Assembly: GCF_001007935.1 (NCBI RefSeq) | Contig: NZ_CP011451.1 | Span: 2,604,001 to 2,668,000 of the forward strand | Direction: 5' to 3' | DNA from: Nitrosomonas communis | Lineage (GTDB): Bacteria > Pseudomonadota > Gammaproteobacteria > Burkholderiales > Nitrosomonadaceae | DNA: 64,000 bases | In this document: one piece after another, positions 2,061-11,173 of the stretch | How positions within the stretch are numbered: position 1 is the first letter of the stretch | Layout of the letters: the number at the start of each line of letters is the position of its first letter | Made by a program: the position numbers and the translations under genes | Notes under the pieces: generated by a model | Told to the model about the DNA's origin: nothing | Database searches by the model: none | What the model saw: only the letters and a program-made list of their open reading frames with translations

Positions 2061-2073
2061 TGATGTGGTTCCC
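2061..2073 (+). repeat. Terminal inverted repeat of the IS3-family element, orfB side
   Basis: The sequence TGATGTGGTTCCC pairs with the other end (3313-3325) at 11 of 13 positions. CGG immediately outside matches the base triplet outside the opposite end. Confidence 0.85.
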
Positions 2074-2128
2074 TGTAACTGGACAACCTGAAAGAAAGTT
2101 CAGCTCTGATATGTATAGTTAAACAGGT

Positions 2129-2956
2129 TCAGGCAACCCGATCAATTCTTGGATCACTATAGTAGATTTCATCAGGCGTAAGACGGTCAAGGCTTTGATG
2201 AAATCGTTCTTGATTGTACCATTCAAACCATGTGGATAAATTCTGCTTTATCTCCTTCAGATTATTGAATTCTCTGGTATATAAAAGCTCATACTTAACT
2301 GTCCGCCAAAGTCGTTCAACAAAAATGTTGTCATAGTAGCACCCCTTGCCATCCATGCTGATCTGAATATGATGATCTTTTAGTATGGAGGTAAATGCTT
2401 CGCTGGTAAACTGTACGCCCTGGTCGGTATTCATGATCTGTGGACAGCCATAATCCTGGATGGCTGCCTCCAGCGCCTGAGTACAAAAGTCAGTATCCAA
2501 GGTATTGGACAAGCGCCAGCTCAACACCTTACGCGAATGCCAGTCGATGATGGCAACCAGATAGCCAAAGCCTTTCTCCATGGGGACATAGGTTATGTCG
2601 GCAGCCCAAACCTGATTGGGTTTATTAATGACAAGTTCTCTAAGCAGATAAGGATAGACCTTATGCTGTTTGCTTGAGATGCTGGTCCTGGGTTTTGGAG
2701 CTATGCTGACAATACCGAGTGTCTTCATTAAGGAAGAGGCTTTCTTGCGCCCTAACATGATTCCCTGGCGCTGAAACCAGGTAGCATAACTGCGTGAGCC
2801 ATATTGTGGCGTCTTTAAGTACTGTTCATCCATCATGCGCAGCAGAACCAGATCAGCATTACTGATTGGTTGCGGTTGATAATAATAAGTTGAGCGCGCC
2901 AGATCCAGCAGCTGACATTGACGAGTTTGACTAAGTTTGCCATGGGGCTCAATCAT
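2129..2956 (-). CDS. IS3-family transposase OrfB (DDE integrase domain)
   Basis: The 275-residue protein has the HTH_21-like region near the N-terminus and an rve integrase core. The core shows the DDE signature: Asp in WAADITYVP, Asp in MNTDQGVQFTS, and Glu in NIFVERLWRTVKYE. The C-terminal YNQERFHQSLDRLTPDEIYY is characteristic of IS3-family OrfB. It starts 20 bases after the orfA stop. In this family the active enzyme is usually an OrfAB fusion made by -1 frameshifting, but the slippery site was not resolved here. Confidence 0.95.
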   Translation of the reverse strand: MIEPHGKLSQTRQCQLLDLARSTYYYQPQPISNADLVLLRMMDEQYLKTPQYGSRSYATWFQRQGIMLGRKKASSLMKTLGIVSIAPKPRTSISSKQHKVYPYLLRELVINKPNQVWAADITYVPMEKGFGYLVAIIDWHSRKVLSWRLSNTLDTDFCTQALEAAIQDYGCPQIMNTDQGVQFTSEAFTSILKDHHIQISMDGKGCYYDNIFVERLWRTVKYELLYTREFNNLKEIKQNLSTWFEWYNQERFHQSLDRLTPDEIYYSDPRIDRVA

Positions 2957-2976
2957 CTCTTTGCGTTCTACAAGAC

Positions 2977-3258
2977 TTAATGATTGAGCTTTCTTGCTAA
3001 AAAATCGCGTTCTACCGCCAATTGACCAATAACCCGGTGCAGGTCATCTGTTGTAGGCTGCTCCTTATTGGCGGCAGTATTATTTTTACAAAACAGCTCG
3101 GCAGCTTGCTCAATGAGTTGCCGTTTCCAGCTATTGATCTGCGTGGGATGTACATTATAACGCGCTGCTAATTGGGGGACAGTTTCATCACCACGTATCG
3201 CTGCCAGCGCTAGTTTTGCTTTGAATTCGCTCGAATATTGTATGCGCTTTTTACTCAT
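2977..3258 (-). CDS. IS3-family transposase OrfA (helix-turn-helix protein)
   Basis: The 93-residue protein begins MSKKRIQYSSEFKAKLALAA and has the HTH_Tnp_1 fold, with VPQLAARYNVHPTQINSWKRQ as the DNA-binding helix pair (about residues 28-47). A C-terminal heptad-like region (IGQLAVERDFLARKL) fits the leucine zipper through which OrfA and OrfAB multimerise. It is the upstream frame of the element and binds the terminal inverted repeats. Confidence 0.93.
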   Translation of the reverse strand: MSKKRIQYSSEFKAKLALAAIRGDETVPQLAARYNVHPTQINSWKRQLIEQAAELFCKNNTAANKEQPTTDDLHRVIGQLAVERDFLARKLNH

Positions 3259-3312
3259 TGTTATTAAGCGCCTTTTTAATTCTGCCAGAGCTTAACAACC
3301 TGTACAGTTTTT

Positions 3313-3325
3313 GGGTACCACTTCA
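3313..3325 (-). repeat. Terminal inverted repeat of the IS3-family element, orfA side
   Basis: Read on the minus strand this is TGAAGTGGTACCC, the partner of 2061-2073. The CGG duplication follows at 3326-3328. Confidence 0.85.
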
Positions 3326-3417
3326 CGGATAAGGTAGACAGAGCGTCCGCACAGCTCGTCGTATGTTACTTATCAAATAAGTATTTTATACTGTCCCTAT
3401 CATTAACCACCTAAGCA

Positions 3418-4740
3418 ATGGTCATGACGATTAATGACATTATTTCCGTCAATAAACAAATATTCGCTTTAGCAGACGTAAATAATTTCTATGTCAGCTG
3501 TGAGAGAGCTTTCAATCCTAATCTGCTCAATAGACCGGTCGTAGTACTCTCCAATAATGATGGATGTGCGGTCGCCCGTTCCAATGAAGTCAAGGCGCTT
3601 GGCGTTAAAATGGGTACGCCATGGTTCCAGCTTAAAGATTTGGCAAAACAGCATAGCATTGTTGCGTTGTCATCCAACTATACATTGTATAGCGACATGT
3701 CTAATCGGGTGATGACGATCCTGCGCGATTTCAGCCCTCATGTTGAAGTCTATTCGATCGATGAGTGTTTTCTTGGTCTGCAGGGCTTGGTAAACCTCTG
3801 GCCGATACCCATGGGGATTGGTCACAAAATACGTAGCCGTATACGGCAGTGGACCAGTTTGCCGGTGTGCGTAGGCTTTGGCGCCACTAAAACGCTAGCA
3901 AAACTTGCTAACCTTATTGCCAAGAAACAACCATATTTTAATGGTGTATGCGACCTTTCAAACATGCCTCATGAACAATTCGAGTCTTTATTATCTACTA
4001 TAGAAGTAGGTGAAGTATGGGGTGTTGGAAGAAAATTGAATCAACATCTGAATGAGGCAGGGATTAAAACCGTGCAAGCATTACGTGACACTCCAACTGC
4101 CTGGTTACGTGCTAAGTTCGGAGTTGTGATGGAGCGCTTAGGTTATGAATTACGTGGGATCTCATGCTTGGCACTGGAAGAATTATCAGCACCTAAAAAG
4201 CAGATCATTTCCTCAAAATCATTTGGACAATTGATTGATAGTCTACCGGAGATTAGTGAATCCGTCGCCAGCTATACCAGCAGTGCGGCAGAAAAGCTGC
4301 GCAGCCAGAACTCGGTCTGTAATGCAATCCAGATATTCATCCAGACCAATCCATTTCGTGAGCATGATAAGCAGTATAGTAACTGCATTACTGTGCCGCT
4401 ACCCAATGCCAGCAGCGATAGCCGTTTACTGGTCAGAGCGGCACTATTTGGTCTCAAACGTATTTACCGACCAGGCTATGCTTATAAAAAAGCAGGGGTA
4501 ATTCTGGCCGGCATAGACTCTGAAGAAATATATCAAGACTCATTATTTGGACTATATGGTGCAGATGATAGGTCAACTAAGTTAATGAGTGTGCTTGACC
4601 AAATAAATCAACGATACGGATGTAACACTCTTTCAGTGTATTCAGCAGGTAAGAAAAAATCATGGATGATGCGTAGGGAGAATATGTCTCCTGGTTACAC
4701 CACAAATTGGCAGGATGTTCCAATTGCGTATGCGCATTGA
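3418..4740 (+). CDS. umuC: UmuC, Y-family DNA polymerase V catalytic subunit
   Basis: The 440-residue protein matches UmuC (422 in E. coli). The palm has the catalytic Asp20 in FALADVNNFYVSCE and the Asp115-Glu116 pair in YSIDECFL. These are followed by the helix-hairpin-helix thumb (GVGRKLNQHLNEAGI), the little finger, and the UmuC C-terminal domain. The N-terminus carries about 16 residues more than E. coli UmuC, starting MVMTINDIIS. No better methionine follows, and the ribosome-binding site is poor. Its partner umuD lies 2.9 kb upstream beyond an IS, so umuC probably relies on its own or an IS-borne promoter. Confidence 0.94.
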   Translation: MVMTINDIISVNKQIFALADVNNFYVSCERAFNPNLLNRPVVVLSNNDGCAVARSNEVKALGVKMGTPWFQLKDLAKQHSIVALSSNYTLYSDMSNRVMTILRDFSPHVEVYSIDECFLGLQGLVNLWPIPMGIGHKIRSRIRQWTSLPVCVGFGATKTLAKLANLIAKKQPYFNGVCDLSNMPHEQFESLLSTIEVGEVWGVGRKLNQHLNEAGIKTVQALRDTPTAWLRAKFGVVMERLGYELRGISCLALEELSAPKKQIISSKSFGQLIDSLPEISESVASYTSSAAEKLRSQNSVCNAIQIFIQTNPFREHDKQYSNCITVPLPNASSDSRLLVRAALFGLKRIYRPGYAYKKAGVILAGIDSEEIYQDSLFGLYGADDRSTKLMSVLDQINQRYGCNTLSVYSAGKKKSWMMRRENMSPGYTTNWQDVPIAYAH

Positions 4741-4757: not shown

Positions 4758-5188
4758 TTATTCTGTTTCCGTTTCAACTTCCTGAATATCCCCAATCCAC
4801 TTTAAGAAATCGTAGGCATTCGACTCCTTAATATCATCTTTAGAAAAAGATTGCACGCATTCAACTTCATAGAAACAAGTCAGGTAATTACGGAAAAAGA
4901 TTTTCTTTCCCATTTCAACCAATCTCAACACAAAATCCAATGCTTCGATAGCTCTTTAAGAACAGCGGTTTGAAACTCATCTTTTGTTATTTTCGTGTAT
5001 CCTATATCAATAGCAATATGTACTTCACGTGGATCGCCTTCCCAGGTAACACAATCACATTTAAGCGCAATATTTCCTTCTGGATCATCAGTCCAATGCA
5101 TAGCAAAATCAAATTTTATGCCTCTAAAAAACCACATACATCTTTTCTCGTCGTACCATGTTTCGATATTGTAGAAAGCTTCTGACAT
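4758..5188 (-). pseudogene. Unknown phage-type protein split by a 1-nt frameshift
   Basis: An ATG-initiated frame (5188 down to 4925, starting MSEAFYNIETWYDEK) ends abruptly after KELSKHWILC. A second frame overlapping its end (from about 4940 to 4758) has no ATG and continues with LDFVLRLVEMGKK, then FFRNYLTCFYEVE and an acidic end. Adding one base near 4941 (AAG GCA TTG instead of AAGCATTG) joins them into one protein of about 143 residues, with KELSKALDFVLRLVEMG as a continuous helix. I do not recognise the family. The gene is the last of the minus-strand block. Mutation and sequencing error cannot be told apart here. Confidence 0.55.
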
Positions 5189-5366: not shown

Positions 5367-5717
5367 CTAGAGGTGTACAGATTGGCCGTCTGGATTGAAT
5401 GAGTATTTCATATCAGCCCACCAAACTGGATTATCATCAATAACCCATTGTCCGCAACCGTTATACCAATAAACATCCCTCCCGGTCCTAGCCCATTCGA
5501 TAATCATTTCGGCGTGCGGGTGGGGCTGGCAGATCATGTAAACATCAATCTCATTACCTTTCAGTAGGGCATCAACTCTTTGCTCTGAAAATACATCGTA
5601 CGCTTTCCAGATATTTGACTCCGTTCCAGCTTTAGTACAAATCTTGAAACCTTCTTTGGAAGTTTTCATCTCGATAATCTGCTCTTCACTTCCGGTGAAT
5701 TTTTTCCAGGCTGGCAT
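5367..5717 (-). CDS. Hypothetical protein, 116 aa, phage-type block
   Basis: I do not recognise the family. The protein is mixed alpha/beta in appearance. It is rich in aromatic residues in its second half (WARTGRDVYWYNGCGQW, NPVWWADMKY) and has a central QPHPHAEMIIEWA stretch. It starts 6 bases after the rtcB stop, so the two are probably co-transcribed. The C-terminus may be incomplete, because an open frame continues in another phase past its stop. Confidence 0.6.
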   Translation of the reverse strand: MPAWKKFTGSEEQIIEMKTSKEGFKICTKAGTESNIWKAYDVFSEQRVDALLKGNEIDVYMICQPHPHAEMIIEWARTGRDVYWYNGCGQWVIDDNPVWWADMKYSFNPDGQSVHL

Positions 5718-5723
5718 TAGTTA

Positions 5724-6938
5724 TCATCCCTTAACATTTAATACCTGCTTCAAGGTATGCTTGATCTTCACCAAATCCCATTGATTTTCCATGACTTGAT
5801 CAATATTTTTGTAGGCAGCTGGAATTTCATCAATTCTTGCTTCATCTTTAGGGCATTCAATACCTTTAGTCTGCTCCTCCAGATCAGCAACAGTGTAAAT
5901 TCTTTTTGCCTCATTCCTTCCCAACCTTCTACCTGCACCATGAGAGCACGAATGAAATGATTCTTCATTCCCCAAACCTTCCACGATGTAAGACTTTGCA
6001 CCCATACTGCCTGGAATAATGCCTAAATCACCTTTTCTCGCTCTAATTGCGCCCTTACGTGTAACAAGCACATTAGCCCCGAAGTGATTTTCTCTTGCAA
6101 CATAATTGTGATGGCAGTTTATAGCTTTATCGGTAGTGGTGAATGATGGGAAAAATCTACTCATACACTGCAATACAATATCCATCATGATCCGCCTGTT
6201 AAGTTCAGCGAACCTCTGTGCCCATGACACAGCATTAATATAATCATCATATATTTTGGTATGCTCCACTAAGTAGGCCAAATCTCTGTTGGGCAGATTA
6301 TCCAGGAGACTGTATCGCTCCATTTCTTCCTTGGCTTTCTCAATAAAATAGGAGCCTATTCTGTTACCTATTCCCCTTGAGCCCGAGTGAAGCATTGCCC
6401 AGACGTAATCTAATTCATCTATGCATATCTCAATAAAATGATTTCCGGTACCAAGGGTACCCAAGTGGTTTATAGTGTTATATCCTTTGGCTTTAGGATA
6501 TTTAGCAATGATTTCTTCATACCCATCAGCAAGAAATGTATTCCAATAATGCGAAACACACTCAATTGGGTTGCCCCACGCTCCTCTGTCACCACTTCCT
6601 CCATTATTAGTTCTTCCATGAGGTATTCTTTTCTCAATTTCTGAACGCAATTCATAAAGGTTATCAGGCAGCATTGACGCTTTTAACGAGGTTTTAACTG
6701 CCATCATTCCACAACCAATATCCACACCCACAGCAGCCGGAATGATTGCACCTTTGGTGGGAATAACTGATCCAATAGTTGATCCAATGCCAGCATGAAC
6801 GTCAGGCATTACAGCAACATGTTTATGGATGAATGGTAGTTTTGATAGATCGGATAGTTGGTCTAGTGCTGATTGATCAACTTCTTCAGTCCAGATTTTT
6901 ACAGGGACTCCATTCCTCAATACTTTCTTTACAGTCAT
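5724..6938 (-). CDS. rtcB: RtcB 3'-phosphate RNA ligase
   Basis: The 404-residue protein (E. coli RtcB is 408) is an RNA-splicing ligase. It joins 2',3'-cyclic phosphate or 3'-phosphate ends to 5'-OH ends using GTP and Mn2+. The metal-binding region has MPDVHAGIGSTIG and GVDIGCGM (Cys76, a Mn ligand). The guanylylated histidine is in SCSHGAGRRLGR near residue 330, and NHLGTLGTGNHFIE is conserved. There is no rtcA or rtcR beside it. Instead it sits in a minus-strand series of phage-type genes, where RtcB may repair host tRNA or mRNA cut by defence nucleases; that role is inference. The gene appears intact. Confidence 0.95.
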   Translation of the reverse strand: MTVKKVLRNGVPVKIWTEEVDQSALDQLSDLSKLPFIHKHVAVMPDVHAGIGSTIGSVIPTKGAIIPAAVGVDIGCGMMAVKTSLKASMLPDNLYELRSEIEKRIPHGRTNNGGSGDRGAWGNPIECVSHYWNTFLADGYEEIIAKYPKAKGYNTINHLGTLGTGNHFIEICIDELDYVWAMLHSGSRGIGNRIGSYFIEKAKEEMERYSLLDNLPNRDLAYLVEHTKIYDDYINAVSWAQRFAELNRRIMMDIVLQCMSRFFPSFTTTDKAINCHHNYVARENHFGANVLVTRKGAIRARKGDLGIIPGSMGAKSYIVEGLGNEESFHSCSHGAGRRLGRNEAKRIYTVADLEEQTKGIECPKDEARIDEIPAAYKNIDQVMENQWDLVKIKHTLKQVLNVKG

Positions 6939-7035: not shown

Positions 7036-7919
7036 TTAAACCGCTGATTCTGCCTTAATTCCAGGCTGATTCTCACACTCTAACAGCTGCCGGTATTGAA
7101 TCCAACCGCGTAGGTTTCCACTCCAAAAATGACCATTCCTATCCATATGCGTTATTCCTTTTTCCCAACTAAGCTCGTAATTATCCTTTACGAAATTCAT
7201 AGGTGTTGCTGGGTGTTCTGTCGGGCTCATGTGAACATCCGATATCAAATCATCGTGTAACTGGATATCCTTCGGTATAATCGGATCACTACCATCATGA
7301 TTGTTATAAGAGACTCTTGCTATTCTTGTCGTAGAACATTTGATAGCACTTTCATTACCCATCCCGTTCCATTCATCAAAAGTTATATAAAGCAAATGCC
7401 ATTGCCCTGGCATTAATTCAATGGGAGTTGAATTATCCATTGATTCTTTCATCTTCTTGGCAACGTCATACATAGCAGGGTCAGCATCAGGATGAACTCT
7501 TAGATTCCAGAAATTTTCCCAATCAGTTCCAGTGCAAATCTTATGCTGCCAATAGAATCCAGATAGATACCTATTCAAGTGCTGCTTATGAACCTTATCC
7601 CATTCTTTTAACTTGCCAGCCGTATAGCCATAAATATCTTTGAGAACATTCCAGAACTCTTCCTTTGAATCCTCATCAAGCAATAAATCTCCCTGCATAC
7701 CAGGCTGATTCAATCGCACATCTTCTGGCGGTAATAACCATGGTCGAGCATCTTCATGAAAGGAATGGCCCGGTTAGATGAACTGTTAGAGCTGATGTTA
7801 GATAGCCTCCTGTGCTTCTCAAATTCCGCATCAAGAAACATGGGTGCTTTTGACTGAATGCTCGTTATTCTTATCCCATTAGCAATGGAATCGCATATTG
7901 TTTTTGCTGTTATTGTCAT
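7036..7919 (-). pseudogene. thyX: ThyX-type flavin-dependent thymidylate synthase, frameshifted
   Basis: Two frames make up one ThyX-like protein. The 5' part (7919 down to 7710, 69 residues) carries the N-terminal strand and the ThyX signature region FEKHRRLSNISSN...RAIP, equivalent to the R-H-R-x-x-S motif. The 3' part (to 7036) carries LNQPGMQ, GFYWQHKICTGTDWENFWNLR and TTRIARVSYNNHDG, as in phage ThyX proteins. One extra base near 7727 (CCCGCC instead of CCGCC) would restore HGYYPPEDVRLNQPG and give about 294 residues. The intact enzyme would make dTMP from dUMP using FAD, NADPH and methylene-tetrahydrofolate. In the present sequence it is broken unless recoded. Confidence 0.75.
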
Positions 7920-7958: not shown

Positions 7959-8450
7959 TTAGTGAACCGCTGTTGATAGCAGCGCAAGAAATGCATCGAC
8001 TTTGGCCGCACTTTCGTTTTTCTCTGGCTCTGCATGCTTATTTCCAGCTGTATTTTCATAAAGAACCACGCGGTTTCTGGCATCTTCGTTAAGCTTATTC
8101 AAAGCCACAACACAGAGAATTTGTGCAAAAAATTCATTATCATGGTGGTTTGATTTGTCATACTTCATCATTTCAGCTTCAACCTCTTCGTAAGGGCATC
8201 TAACCGAGATGTTTCTATAATCAATGTTAAAGCGCACAACAGCATTTTCCCCATTTATGATGAAGCATTGATATTCTTTAATTAACTCTGCGTTTGTGGC
8301 AAGCAAATCATCAATTTTACGCATAATATCCATAGCTGATTTTTTGCCATCTTCAGAAGGATGAACCATTGTTCCGTTTTCAAACACAACCCAATTGTTG
8401 CCGCATTCAATCTTACTCATTTGTTCTTTCCAAAACTCAACGTGACTCAT
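7959..8450 (-). CDS. Hypothetical protein, 163 aa, tandem paralogue 1
   Basis: It has no recognised family. It starts MSHVEFWKEQMSKI, then WVVFENGTMVHP, and near the C-terminus NEDARNRVVLYEN. These blocks match the neighbouring 131-residue protein (8451-8846), so the two arose by tandem duplication. It has a longer charged C-terminal tail than its sister. Its ATG immediately follows the sister's stop codon, consistent with translational coupling. It lacks obvious catalytic motifs, signal peptide and membrane segments. Confidence 0.7.
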   Translation of the reverse strand: MSHVEFWKEQMSKIECGNNWVVFENGTMVHPSEDGKKSAMDIMRKIDDLLATNAELIKEYQCFIINGENAVVRFNIDYRNISVRCPYEEVEAEMMKYDKSNHHDNEFFAQILCVVALNKLNEDARNRVVLYENTAGNKHAEPEKNESAAKVDAFLALLSTAVH

Positions 8451-8846
8451 TTATTCCACCGTATCCTTATTACTATCAAATAAAACTACTCTACTTTTTG
8501 CATCAAGATTTCTTTGCTTTATGCCCAAATAAATAGCGCAATGCATTACCTCATCTGGGCTTGTGTATGCTGGAAAATCTTCTTTTTTACAATATGTCCA
8601 TATGGTTCCGTACGAACTCTGAAATGAAGTTGTCCAATAATTGGCATAACCTCTTGGGTAAATATACATAGCGAAGTTCATTTTTTCTCTGAAATCCACA
8701 TGAAGCGCATGATCTAACATCTCAAGGACTTGGGAAGCGTTAAAGCCCAAATAAGGAGTGACTAATGTTCCATTCTCAAAAACAACCCAATCTTCTAATA
8801 ATCCTAACTTGTTAATAAATTCTTTCCAAAACTCAAGGTGATCCAT
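8451..8846 (-). CDS. Hypothetical protein, 131 aa, tandem paralogue 2
   Basis: It is the sister of the downstream 163-residue protein. It begins MDHLEFWKEFINKL, followed by WVVFENGTLVTP, and ends with LDAKSRVVLFDSN. The middle is rich in aromatic residues (YIYPRGYANYWTTSF). It is cytosolic by appearance. The stop codon abuts the ATG of the next gene. Function is unknown. Membership in a phage-type operon suggests a small accessory or anti-host protein, but this is only inference from position. Confidence 0.7.
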   Translation of the reverse strand: MDHLEFWKEFINKLGLLEDWVVFENGTLVTPYLGFNASQVLEMLDHALHVDFREKMNFAMYIYPRGYANYWTTSFQSSYGTIWTYCKKEDFPAYTSPDEVMHCAIYLGIKQRNLDAKSRVVLFDSNKDTVE

Positions 8847-8866: not shown

Positions 8867-9058
8867 TTAGTTTTTATCGAATGTGTGATAACCAATGAAG
8901 TTTTTACACCCGCTTAACGTCAGAGCAGGCTTGATATAAACCTGCCTCGGGTTAGCGTTGGGATCCCTTCTTCTGCATCGCTGGCAGAGTGGAGCCTTTA
9001 TTCCTCCGCATTTGTCTATGTAGTGTATGAGTCGATCGTTTGGATCACCTTTTAACAT
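8867..9058 (-). CDS. Small cysteine-rich protein, 63 aa
   Basis: It starts MLKGDPNDRLIHYIDKCGG and contains C-x(6)-C-x2-C-R-R-R-D and a further SGCKNF, a pattern that could bind zinc. The ATG overlaps the downstream in-frame TAA (9052-9054) of the dNMP kinase gene as ATGTTAA, a typical coupled arrangement in compact phage operons. No family is recognised. The overlap supports it being a real gene. Confidence 0.55.
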   Translation of the reverse strand: MLKGDPNDRLIHYIDKCGGIKAPLCQRCRRRDPNANPRQVYIKPALTLSGCKNFIGYHTFDKN

Positions 9059-9639
9059 TTAACTACTTCCAGGGCATCATCAATAGCGATCGTCAAATCC
9101 TCTAAGCTGCCATCGTTGTGAATAATCAAGTCAATGTATTTCGGGTCCAGACCTTTCTTAGATTCGTGCGGAGATTCCACTTTGAAGGGGTTGTTCTACC
9201 TTTTTACTTGCCAGATAGTGCCGCCATTCTTTTTGATCATTTGAGCTTCATCCTCAAACCGAACATCAGAAACAACGATATCAAGAAGAGATTGTGTTTT
9301 TAGTTTTAAGTAAGTCTTTATTTTTAACTCAGTAGGTTTAACAGATGTATCAGGGTCAATTGATCGAGCCCAGTCACTAAATGAGAACATAACTTCTCTT
9401 GGTGTGGATTCACCTAGTAATTTGCTAGGCTTATCTTTTAGCTTTCTATCATAGAAAAGATTGAAATATATTTCATAATCAGGATGACCGTTTACAATAT
9501 CAAGTGACAGCAATATTCTTCTGACAAACTCAGTTTTAAACATAATCTCTTTATAACCATATTTGTCAGAGAGAAGCCGCCCCACCTGACTCTTGCCTGA
9601 TCCAATTGCCCCAGCTAGGCCGATTAATTTAAAAGGCAT
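9052..9639 (-). pseudogene. Phage-type deoxynucleoside monophosphate kinase with internal amber codon
   Basis: The P-loop GAIGSGKS lies at residues 10-17. The conserved VVSDVRFEDEAQMIKKNGG near residue 125 is typical of phage dNMP kinases (T4 gp1-like), which phosphorylate dNMPs for DNA synthesis. The frame hits TAG at 9196-9198 after WQVKR but stays open past it. It continues with NNPFKVESPHESKKGLDPKY and NDGSLEDL, the expected family C-terminus (the HES...GLD block), to TAA 9052-9054. The full product would be about 195 residues. The TAG is therefore either a nonsense mutation or a suppressed codon. The ATG at 9639 follows the upstream gene by 15 bases. Confidence 0.78.
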
Positions 9640-9654
9640 GCTTCCTTTTCTATC

Positions 9655-10188
9655 CTATTCAGAGTACATCGTAGTTTCGTCACCTGTTGCGCGCCAATCA
9701 AGTTCATTGTCGCTCAGTCTTCTACGCATCATCACCTCTGTCTCGGGAACAACATACAGCACTCTACATATTCGCGAATAAACTGAGAACCACCAGTTAC
9801 GTATTCTCATATCAGGATGCTGGTAACCAAGCACCTCTGCAGCATGCATGAAGTGAGTTAAGTAATGGTGTGGTAACTCGTCCTTGGCTTTAAGAAAGGC
9901 ATCTATTTTTGGTTTCATGGCTGTTTCCCAATCAAGAGCAAAACGACCATCATAATCTTGCATATTGCATGATGGCCCGGTAAATGATCCGCCTCCGAGT
10001 TGACAAGGGCTGTTAAAAACCTTTCCATCAAAAGCAGATACAAGCACACATCTGCGAAACCATCTAATCATAGCCCGACATGCTTGACACTTGGATATAC
10101 CATCTGGACCACGTATAGCACTTAACAATACTGATTGTTGCATCAGAGGTAACTCAGACACCCAATCTTGCACTGTACTTTTACTCAT
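9655..10188 (-). CDS. Conserved phage-type hypothetical protein, 177 aa
   Basis: It starts MSKSTVQDWVSELPLMQQSV and continues LLSAIRGPDGISK, then a WFRRCVLVSAF block, GGGSFTGPS, and a helical C-terminus with PHHYLTHFMHAAEVLGYQHPD and DWRATG. This layout is familiar from conserved hypothetical proteins of tailed phages and prophages, but no function is known to me. It is the first gene of the minus-strand block. AGGAGTG precedes the ATG, and a TTGACA hexamer and a palindrome lie upstream. It appears intact. Confidence 0.75.
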   Translation of the reverse strand: MSKSTVQDWVSELPLMQQSVLLSAIRGPDGISKCQACRAMIRWFRRCVLVSAFDGKVFNSPCQLGGGSFTGPSCNMQDYDGRFALDWETAMKPKIDAFLKAKDELPHHYLTHFMHAAEVLGYQHPDMRIRNWWFSVYSRICRVLYVVPETEVMMRRRLSDNELDWRATGDETTMYSE

Positions 10189-10552: not shown

Positions 10553-11173
10553 TTGTTCAATGATCAAAATGTAAGTAATCAACAATTTATGTTGAGCGAT
10601 GGAACGAATAGTTGTCTTGTTGATCCAGATGGCGCAAAAATTCAGAGTGATATAAAACTAGTTTGGTATGGGAGCACTGAATGGCCAACTACGACCAAAA
10701 TTCTGGAAAGTCAATCTATATTGAATATAGCCTCCAAGCATTATCGCTACCAGGAAAGACTCATATTACCCCGCCAATCACTTTATATTATCGGACAATT
10801 TAGAACCCTATCCTCTCATACCAATCAATCAGTTAGACAAGTGATGCTTGATCTCATTGATAATTGGAAAAAAGATAAGCTGCAACTATTGACGCGTTTC
10901 GATACCAATAAAGATGGTGAAATTGATCAGGAAGAGTGGGAATCAGCACGTCTGGCAGCACAATTACAAGCTCAACAAATTTACCTTGAGCGACCAGTGG
11001 AACAAGCTGTCAGCATTATTACAAAACCAGATATCTCACAGCGACCTTTTATCATATCTGTTTATCCCCAGAAGCGACTGATCAAAAAATATCGCCAAAT
11101 TGCTTTTTCTGCTTTCACTCTTTGTCTGGTCTTAATGGGCTACATTGTCTGGTTAATGCAGACATACCATTGA
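10529..11173 (+). pseudogene. 5'-truncated GIDE-domain (MULAN-like) membrane protein with EF-hand
   Basis: The open frame begins after a TAA at 10526-10528, and its first possible start is TTG at 10553. It encodes the C-terminal part of a GIDE-domain protein: MLSDGTNSCLVDPDGAKI, WYGS, then YRYQERLILPRQSLYIIGQF. An EF-hand-like loop DTNKDGEIDQEE (residues 117-128) and a membrane helix near 184-202 follow. Bacterial relatives usually carry a further N-terminal membrane helix and a P-x-x-W-Y-R-Y-type segment, which is absent here. The truncation coincides with the edge of the phage-type block. A functional short form starting at TTG cannot be excluded. Confidence 0.65.

Follow-up and report, generated by a model that had tools for sequence, protein, structure and literature searches.

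Two small genes lie side by side on the minus strand of the window, the 64,000-nucleotide stretch of Nitrosomonas communis DNA that was analysed here. The first encodes P131 (8451-8846; 131 amino acids, ATG start) and the second P163 (7959-8450; 163 amino acids, ATG start), and the two are joined stop-to-start, the TAA of one abutting the ATG of the other (...GAATAAATGAGT...), just as an earlier reading made from the sequence only had described them. The three blocks picked out in that reading, HxEFWKE, WVVFENGT and DAxxRVVL, are all common to both proteins, and the tandem paralogy that it proposed is borne out by BLASTP (E=3e-13, 26% identity over 133 columns) and by a local alignment score of 120, where 2000 shuffles average 28 and never exceed 58. 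Beyond the first 31 residues the score is 41, which is equalled by 22 of the 2000 shuffles, so that the middle parts have diverged almost past recognition. Because similarity past residue 31 is weak, support for paralogy comes mainly from the N-terminal part and the C-terminal block, with their order kept. Judged by sequence comparison, P131 and P163 are true, ancient tandem paralogues.

Relatives of the pair are found in two further genomes only, those of N. communis Nm44 and Nitrosomonas sp. Nm34. The Nm44 genome carries one intact copy, P160 (160 amino acids), which is 60% identical to P163, and is without P131. The existence of this relative, together with a dN/dS of 0.27 between the two genes, indicates that P163 is a real protein; the possibility of spurious open reading frames (ORFs) was ruled out by the same ratio and by the conserved motifs. 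Under a simple model, the chance of finding zero stops after 133 unconstrained substitutions between P163 and the Nm44 copy is about 0.006, which, taken with the dN/dS, implies that P163 has been under purifying selection for most of the divergence time, in a phage or in the host. The fast change that had been suggested for these proteins is visible in the 27% identity between the paralogues and the 60% identity between P163 and its Nm44 counterpart.

The genes surrounding the pair also lie on the minus strand, as far as the right edge of the block. A conserved upstream neighbour, p63 (8867-9058), is a small cysteine-containing ORF (CQRC) that is 97% identical in Nm34 and, in Nm44, stands directly 5′ of the single P163 relative with 60% identity over 50 residues. 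It is preceded by a gene for a deoxynucleoside monophosphate (dNMP) kinase (9052-9639; PHROG 139, E=6e-20) with an in-frame stop; the ORF of 147 amino acids spans 9639-9196 and the homologous frame runs on to about 9052, and in Nm34 the frame is open for 191 amino acids. The phage-type protein p177 (9655-10188) has no significant Pfam or PHROG match and no match in IMG/VR, and its phage relatives are 35-43% identical. These include a hypothetical protein of Synechococcus phages Ssp-JY38 and Yong-L2-223 (43% over 94%) and relatives at 35% in four Rhizobium phage records. In Ssp-JY38 the p177 relative lies near a recombinase, a RecB-type exonuclease and 7-deazaguanine/queuosine genes, with DNA polymerase genes further down, and in the two Rhizobium phage regions that were read it is surrounded mostly by hypothetical proteins. 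No P163 relative was present in the flanks of the p177-bearing phages (L077-L079). All 177 of the 177 residues of p177 are identical between the window and Nm34.

On the other side of the pair, a ThyX thymidylate synthase gene (7036-7919) is split into two frames (7919-7710 and 7719-7036). The C-terminal part matches PHROG 85 (E=1e-53), and the N-terminal part, with no match in Pfam or PHROGs, was assigned by position and by eye. Beyond it are an RtcB RNA ligase (5724-6938; PF01139, E=6e-123), the phage-type ORF p116 (5367-5717; phrog_13152, E=2e-4), which is truncated in Nm34, and a further ORF of the block, p87 (4925-5188; 94% in Nm34). Among the phage matches listed, identities are 29-36% for the kinase, and the best listed are 39-42% for ThyX and 60-61% for RtcB. 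The right edge of the block is marked by a conserved gene on the plus strand (10553-11173), a homologue of which is present in 70 of 85 Nitrosomonas genomes. The base composition of the block (39%) is only slightly lower than that of its surroundings (41%).

The pair thus stands beside phage-type nucleotide and replication genes, and the block is genuinely phage-like, since the kinase, ThyX, RtcB and p177 all have phage relatives. Signs of decay are equally plain: in the window the ThyX frame is interrupted and a stop codon lies inside the kinase gene (whose frame is open in Nm34), and all three genomes have a broken thymidylate synthase gene beside the pair or its relative. The block is a decaying remnant of phage-type DNA. 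The sequence-only reading had placed the pair in a phage early operon; the phage-type block stands, but a working operon does not, with ThyX and the kinase broken and with no significant relative of the pair on any phage, plasmid or viral contig of the collections searched. Since neither an intact phage nor a complete prophage with the pair was found in phage records or in IMG/VR scans, which as pattern scans reach close relatives only, a phage origin of the pair is suggested by its neighbours.

The block may also be a composite of mobile pieces, because umuDC adjoins it and RtcB copies occur elsewhere in the genome. Beside the block are genes that we take to be UmuD (84-551) and UmuC (3418-4740). 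UmuD is also found near the Nm44 family copy, in DNA that is 90% identical over 553 bases, and may for that reason travel with phage material. RtcB is present in three copies in the genome, the other two (C1:2284091-2285284 and C1:1494571-1495770, in loci L013 and L014) being 88-90% identical to the window copy; both adjoin a 353-amino-acid ORF, presumably transposase-like, that is alike in the two places. Nm34 has two full RtcB copies and one broken copy. A 1266-bp element, presumably of the IS3 type, occupies 2061-3326 between the Crp-like and UmuC genes and has a 99.8% identical copy in L014; Nm34 lacks the element here, and its matches to the two flanks share 5 bp.

The two related loci record different fates of the pair. 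In Nm34 the block adjoins the same left flank as in the window (thiG, trmB) and stops where the contig ends, at an IS copy; of the right-flank gene, the final 49 residues alone were found, on another contig. P131 is intact there and 98% identical to the window protein, with 5 substitutions between them, and a deletion of about 1 kb, which fuses window positions 7387 and 8383, has taken the greater part of P163 together with the front part of ThyX. In Nm44 the gene order of p63, P163 relative and thymidylate synthase is the same as in the window. The synthase is a ThyA pseudogene (L019:8900-9800), with a 111-amino-acid ORF between it and the P163 relative, and at a distance of about 6.4 kb there is a gene for a tyrosine integrase (PHROG 1, E=1e-49). 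ThyA is a protein unrelated to ThyX, and the same p63-P163 genes are therefore found ahead of non-homologous synthases, ThyX in the window and the ThyA pseudogene in Nm44. The DNA match between Nm44 and the right flank of the window starts at 10563, and trmB, the left-flank gene, is absent from the Nm44 stretch that shares this right flank; a clean empty site for the block is therefore not demonstrated.

The Nm44 copy combines a leader and ribosome-binding site that are P131-like (L019:7925-8050) with a body that is P163-like. Such a hybrid gene would be expected if the two tandem genes had recombined at their first codons, which are nearly identical, and so collapsed into one; or else P131 may have arisen in the other lineage and then diverged quickly.

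The arrangement of these loci bears on what the pair might do. A thymidylate synthase gene comes after p63-P163 in both lineages and, in the window, a dNMP kinase gene precedes them, as would be expected if the pair modulated thymidylate or dNTP synthesis, for instance by binding one of these two enzymes, from either phage or host. We regard such modulation as improbable, given that there are only two distinct arrangements, that the synthase is broken in all three genomes, and that the 111-amino-acid ORF separates the P163 relative from the synthase in Nm44. A specific contact with the synthase is further disfavoured because unrelated synthases have been swapped beside the same gene. The place beside either type of synthase is the only hint that the pair may serve nucleotide supply, and it is drawn from those two arrangements.

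The persistence of open pair members invites another explanation, in which the host has domesticated the surviving copy, since each genome keeps at least one intact member amid rotting phage genes; all three have a broken thymidylate synthase gene and an open frame for one or both pair members. The intact genes are short, however, and the decay may be recent, with P131 differing by only 5 substitutions between the window and Nm34. P163 has moreover been lost in Nm34 and P131 is absent from Nm44, and 82 of 85 genomes of the genus have no match at all, which together make domestication very unlikely.

The narrow distribution of the family was seen at every level searched. A profile search gave strong matches in 3 of 85 Nitrosomonas genomes, a scan of genome contigs returned the two loci in Nm44 (L019) and Nm34 (L020), and a search of the order with a single-sequence query found the family in 1 of 399 genomes. 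At the level of the phylum, the only strong profile match among 398 genomes was in the pair's own genome, and a DNA pattern for WV[FLIMV]FE[NH]GT likewise occurred in 1 of 398 genomes, again its own, at two sites. The phylum profile search also returned 14 other genomes (L021-L034) at E 0.003-0.03. These weak matches cover model positions of about 110-150, in the C-terminal part, and lie within ORFs that are 360-439 codons long, and 12 of the 14 genomes belong to one bacterial family; the matches were read as chance or composition and rejected as relatives.

Searches of mobile elements were negative for the pair. With tblastn against 50,697 phage records, P163 gave matches at E of at least 8 only, P131 a single match at E=10 and the Nm44 relative none, and 72,556 plasmids held no match. 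Three protein scans and one WVVFENGT scan of IMG/VR were likewise without a relative of the pair. The motif FENGTCV occurs at 8 loci in IMG/VR, where no frame resembled a relative by eye, and these loci were set aside.

The conclusion of the sequence-only reading that no family is recognised holds for Pfam and PHROGs, and for NCBIfam, Pfam and PADLOC when queried with all four known members. Neither P131 nor P163 has a significant match in Pfam, PHROGs, NCBIfam, PADLOC or PDB sequences, PHROGs having been queried with the two window proteins only. The best matches are weak (P163 to phrog_32366 at E=0.023; D5_N at E=0.026, for one of four members; a PDB capsid protein at E=0.054), and membership of a known family was rejected. 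No match of the pair to a housekeeping family, the finding that the earlier reading had named as contrary to its view, was obtained, and no title or abstract opening among the papers listed deals with the two proteins. The P131/P163 family is undescribed in the libraries searched.

Genes that are gained and lost from strain to strain are typical of anti-defence and host-takeover functions, and pair members have been gained or lost between the strains compared here. Small early phage proteins of this kind bind and block the defence or transcription machinery of the host, and duplicates could then have different targets. The small size of the proteins, their duplication, the 27% identity between the paralogues and their place among phage nucleotide-metabolism genes would all be in keeping with such a role. 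Other observations point the other way. Anti-defence names are absent among the PHROGs matches of 8 window neighbours and 9 proteins of related loci, these neighbours being known from three remnants only, and the pair itself matches no named anti-defence PHROG or Pfam family. None of the PADLOC profiles, a library of defence proteins and not of counter-defence as such, matches the four members, and the dN/dS of 0.27 signals constraint, not positive selection. An anti-defence or host-takeover function is a conjecture that none of the results supports, and is considered unlikely.

Structure prediction adds a rough outline. AlphaFold models built from a four-sequence input are poor (mean pLDDT 48 and 57); at this low confidence both run from a helix through a hairpin and a second helix to two or three strands and a further helix, and P131 has one more strand at its end. 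Fold searches, for which the P131 model alone was used, returned nothing with E below 0.03, and a second comparison gave a Z of at most 2.4. The Foldseek list against the PDB was rich in Ragulator, Roadblock and longin chains, with E values of 0.047 or worse and TM-scores below 0.3, and the second comparison, with the same low-confidence model, returned no row titled Roadblock, a result that such a fold would still allow. The Roadblock/LC7 family (PF03259) has no match at E<=1 to the four members, and none at E<=1e-6 anywhere in the pair's own genome. In profile comparison, 148 of 200 shuffles were as good as the pair profile against the Roadblock profile; this Roadblock alignment is thin, two of its seven loci having been dropped because the expected frame was not readable there, and the L076 row being not Roadblock-like and probably a wrong-strand reading. 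With the profile comparison at chance and no PF03259 match, a Roadblock/LC7 identity was rejected on sequence grounds.

A further resemblance came through the WVVFENGT motif, which recalls an unnamed Streptomyces family of the form WV[LV]FE[HN]GTCV ... GWVVTGHHNDVLTYV ... RDGxELxVVHVED. A WVLFEHGTCV family is indeed real in Streptomyces plasmids, with proteins of 129-133 amino acids (WP_198939719.1, WP_189829303.1), and matches no Pfam, NCBIfam or PHROG entry. It is possible, though doubtful, that P131 and P163 are remote members of this family. An hhalign comparison puts the helix and WVxFExGT in register (E=0.0014, probability 18%), and none of 200 profiles with all columns shuffled reaches the score of the real comparison; when the motif columns are held fixed, however, 189 of 200 shuffled profiles do so, and in all four members the parts flanking the motif align with one Streptomyces member no better than shuffles. 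The shared motif is not independent evidence, because it was through that motif that the Streptomyces family was chosen for comparison.

In a set of 2514 ORFs from 14 hand-chosen loci, the Streptomyces loci included, the first three non-self matches of the P163/P131 profile are Streptomyces members (E 0.2-1.1; a fourth member at 7.9), and in the reverse search the Nm44 P160 is the second non-self match, at E 0.9; the matches are significant in neither direction. When the Streptomyces profile was run against the Nm44 genome, on the other hand, the P163 relative was not reported at E<=1. The C-terminal block of P131 aligns opposite the Streptomyces C-terminal block, and DAxxRVVL[YF][ED] of the pair is placed similarly to GLFGRSKR..DG.EL.VVHVE, without statistical support. 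The Streptomyces family has no match in IMG/VR and matches phages at E of at least 0.6 only; a typed consensus was found in 0 of 200 phylum genomes, a set without a positive genome, in which an empty result shows nothing. The motif resemblance may serve as a lead only.

The reading favoured here, to which we give a probability of roughly 0.65, is that P131 and P163 are a lineage-specific accessory pair of a Nitrosomonas phage, preserved in a prophage remnant. The genes would be old tandem duplicates of an ORFan gene in the DNA-precursor cluster of a phage infecting Nitrosomonas, sited between the dNMP kinase and thymidylate synthase and now carried in a decaying chromosomal remnant. Each product would be small, soluble and of the alpha/beta type, with no catalytic signature, and the conserved N-terminal helix and WVVFENGT hairpin may form a common scaffold, an idea that is weak because both models are poor. 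The diverged middle segment could then let the two copies bind different partners during infection, presumably nucleotide-metabolism enzymes of the host or of the phage. This mechanism, in which a shared scaffold with diverged middles serves different partners, is the likeliest one, is offered tentatively and, taken by itself, is rather unlikely.

It is very unlikely, though conceivable, that the pair represents a new effector family, duplicated and diversified in ammonia-oxidiser phages, whose target is the making of thymidylate or dNTPs, or else a defence that responds to it. If this were true, the same small gene would stand beside ThyX or ThyA because the effector acts whichever type of synthase the phage carries, and proteins acting on nucleotide synthesis or defence would make useful small tools. 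Phages of ammonia oxidisers are poorly known, and the family probably marks an unseen lineage of Nitrosomonas phages. Its immediate value is modest, because an orphan pair in decaying phage-type DNA is a common situation.

With regard to known systems, Roadblock/LC7 (PF03259) resembles the P131 model in weak Foldseek rows and differs in having no Pfam match to the pair. The Streptomyces family is like the pair in length, in the helix followed by WV[LV]FE[HN]GT and in a C-terminal D[AG]..VV..[ED] in a similar place; unlike the pair, it is found on plasmids and not in phage-type blocks, and there is no significant similarity outside the motif. The nucleotide-metabolism clusters of phages, although tblastn gave nothing significant for P131 or P163 in any phage record, are like the window block in the kinds of enzyme genes that they bring together, namely dNMP kinase, ThyX and RtcB.
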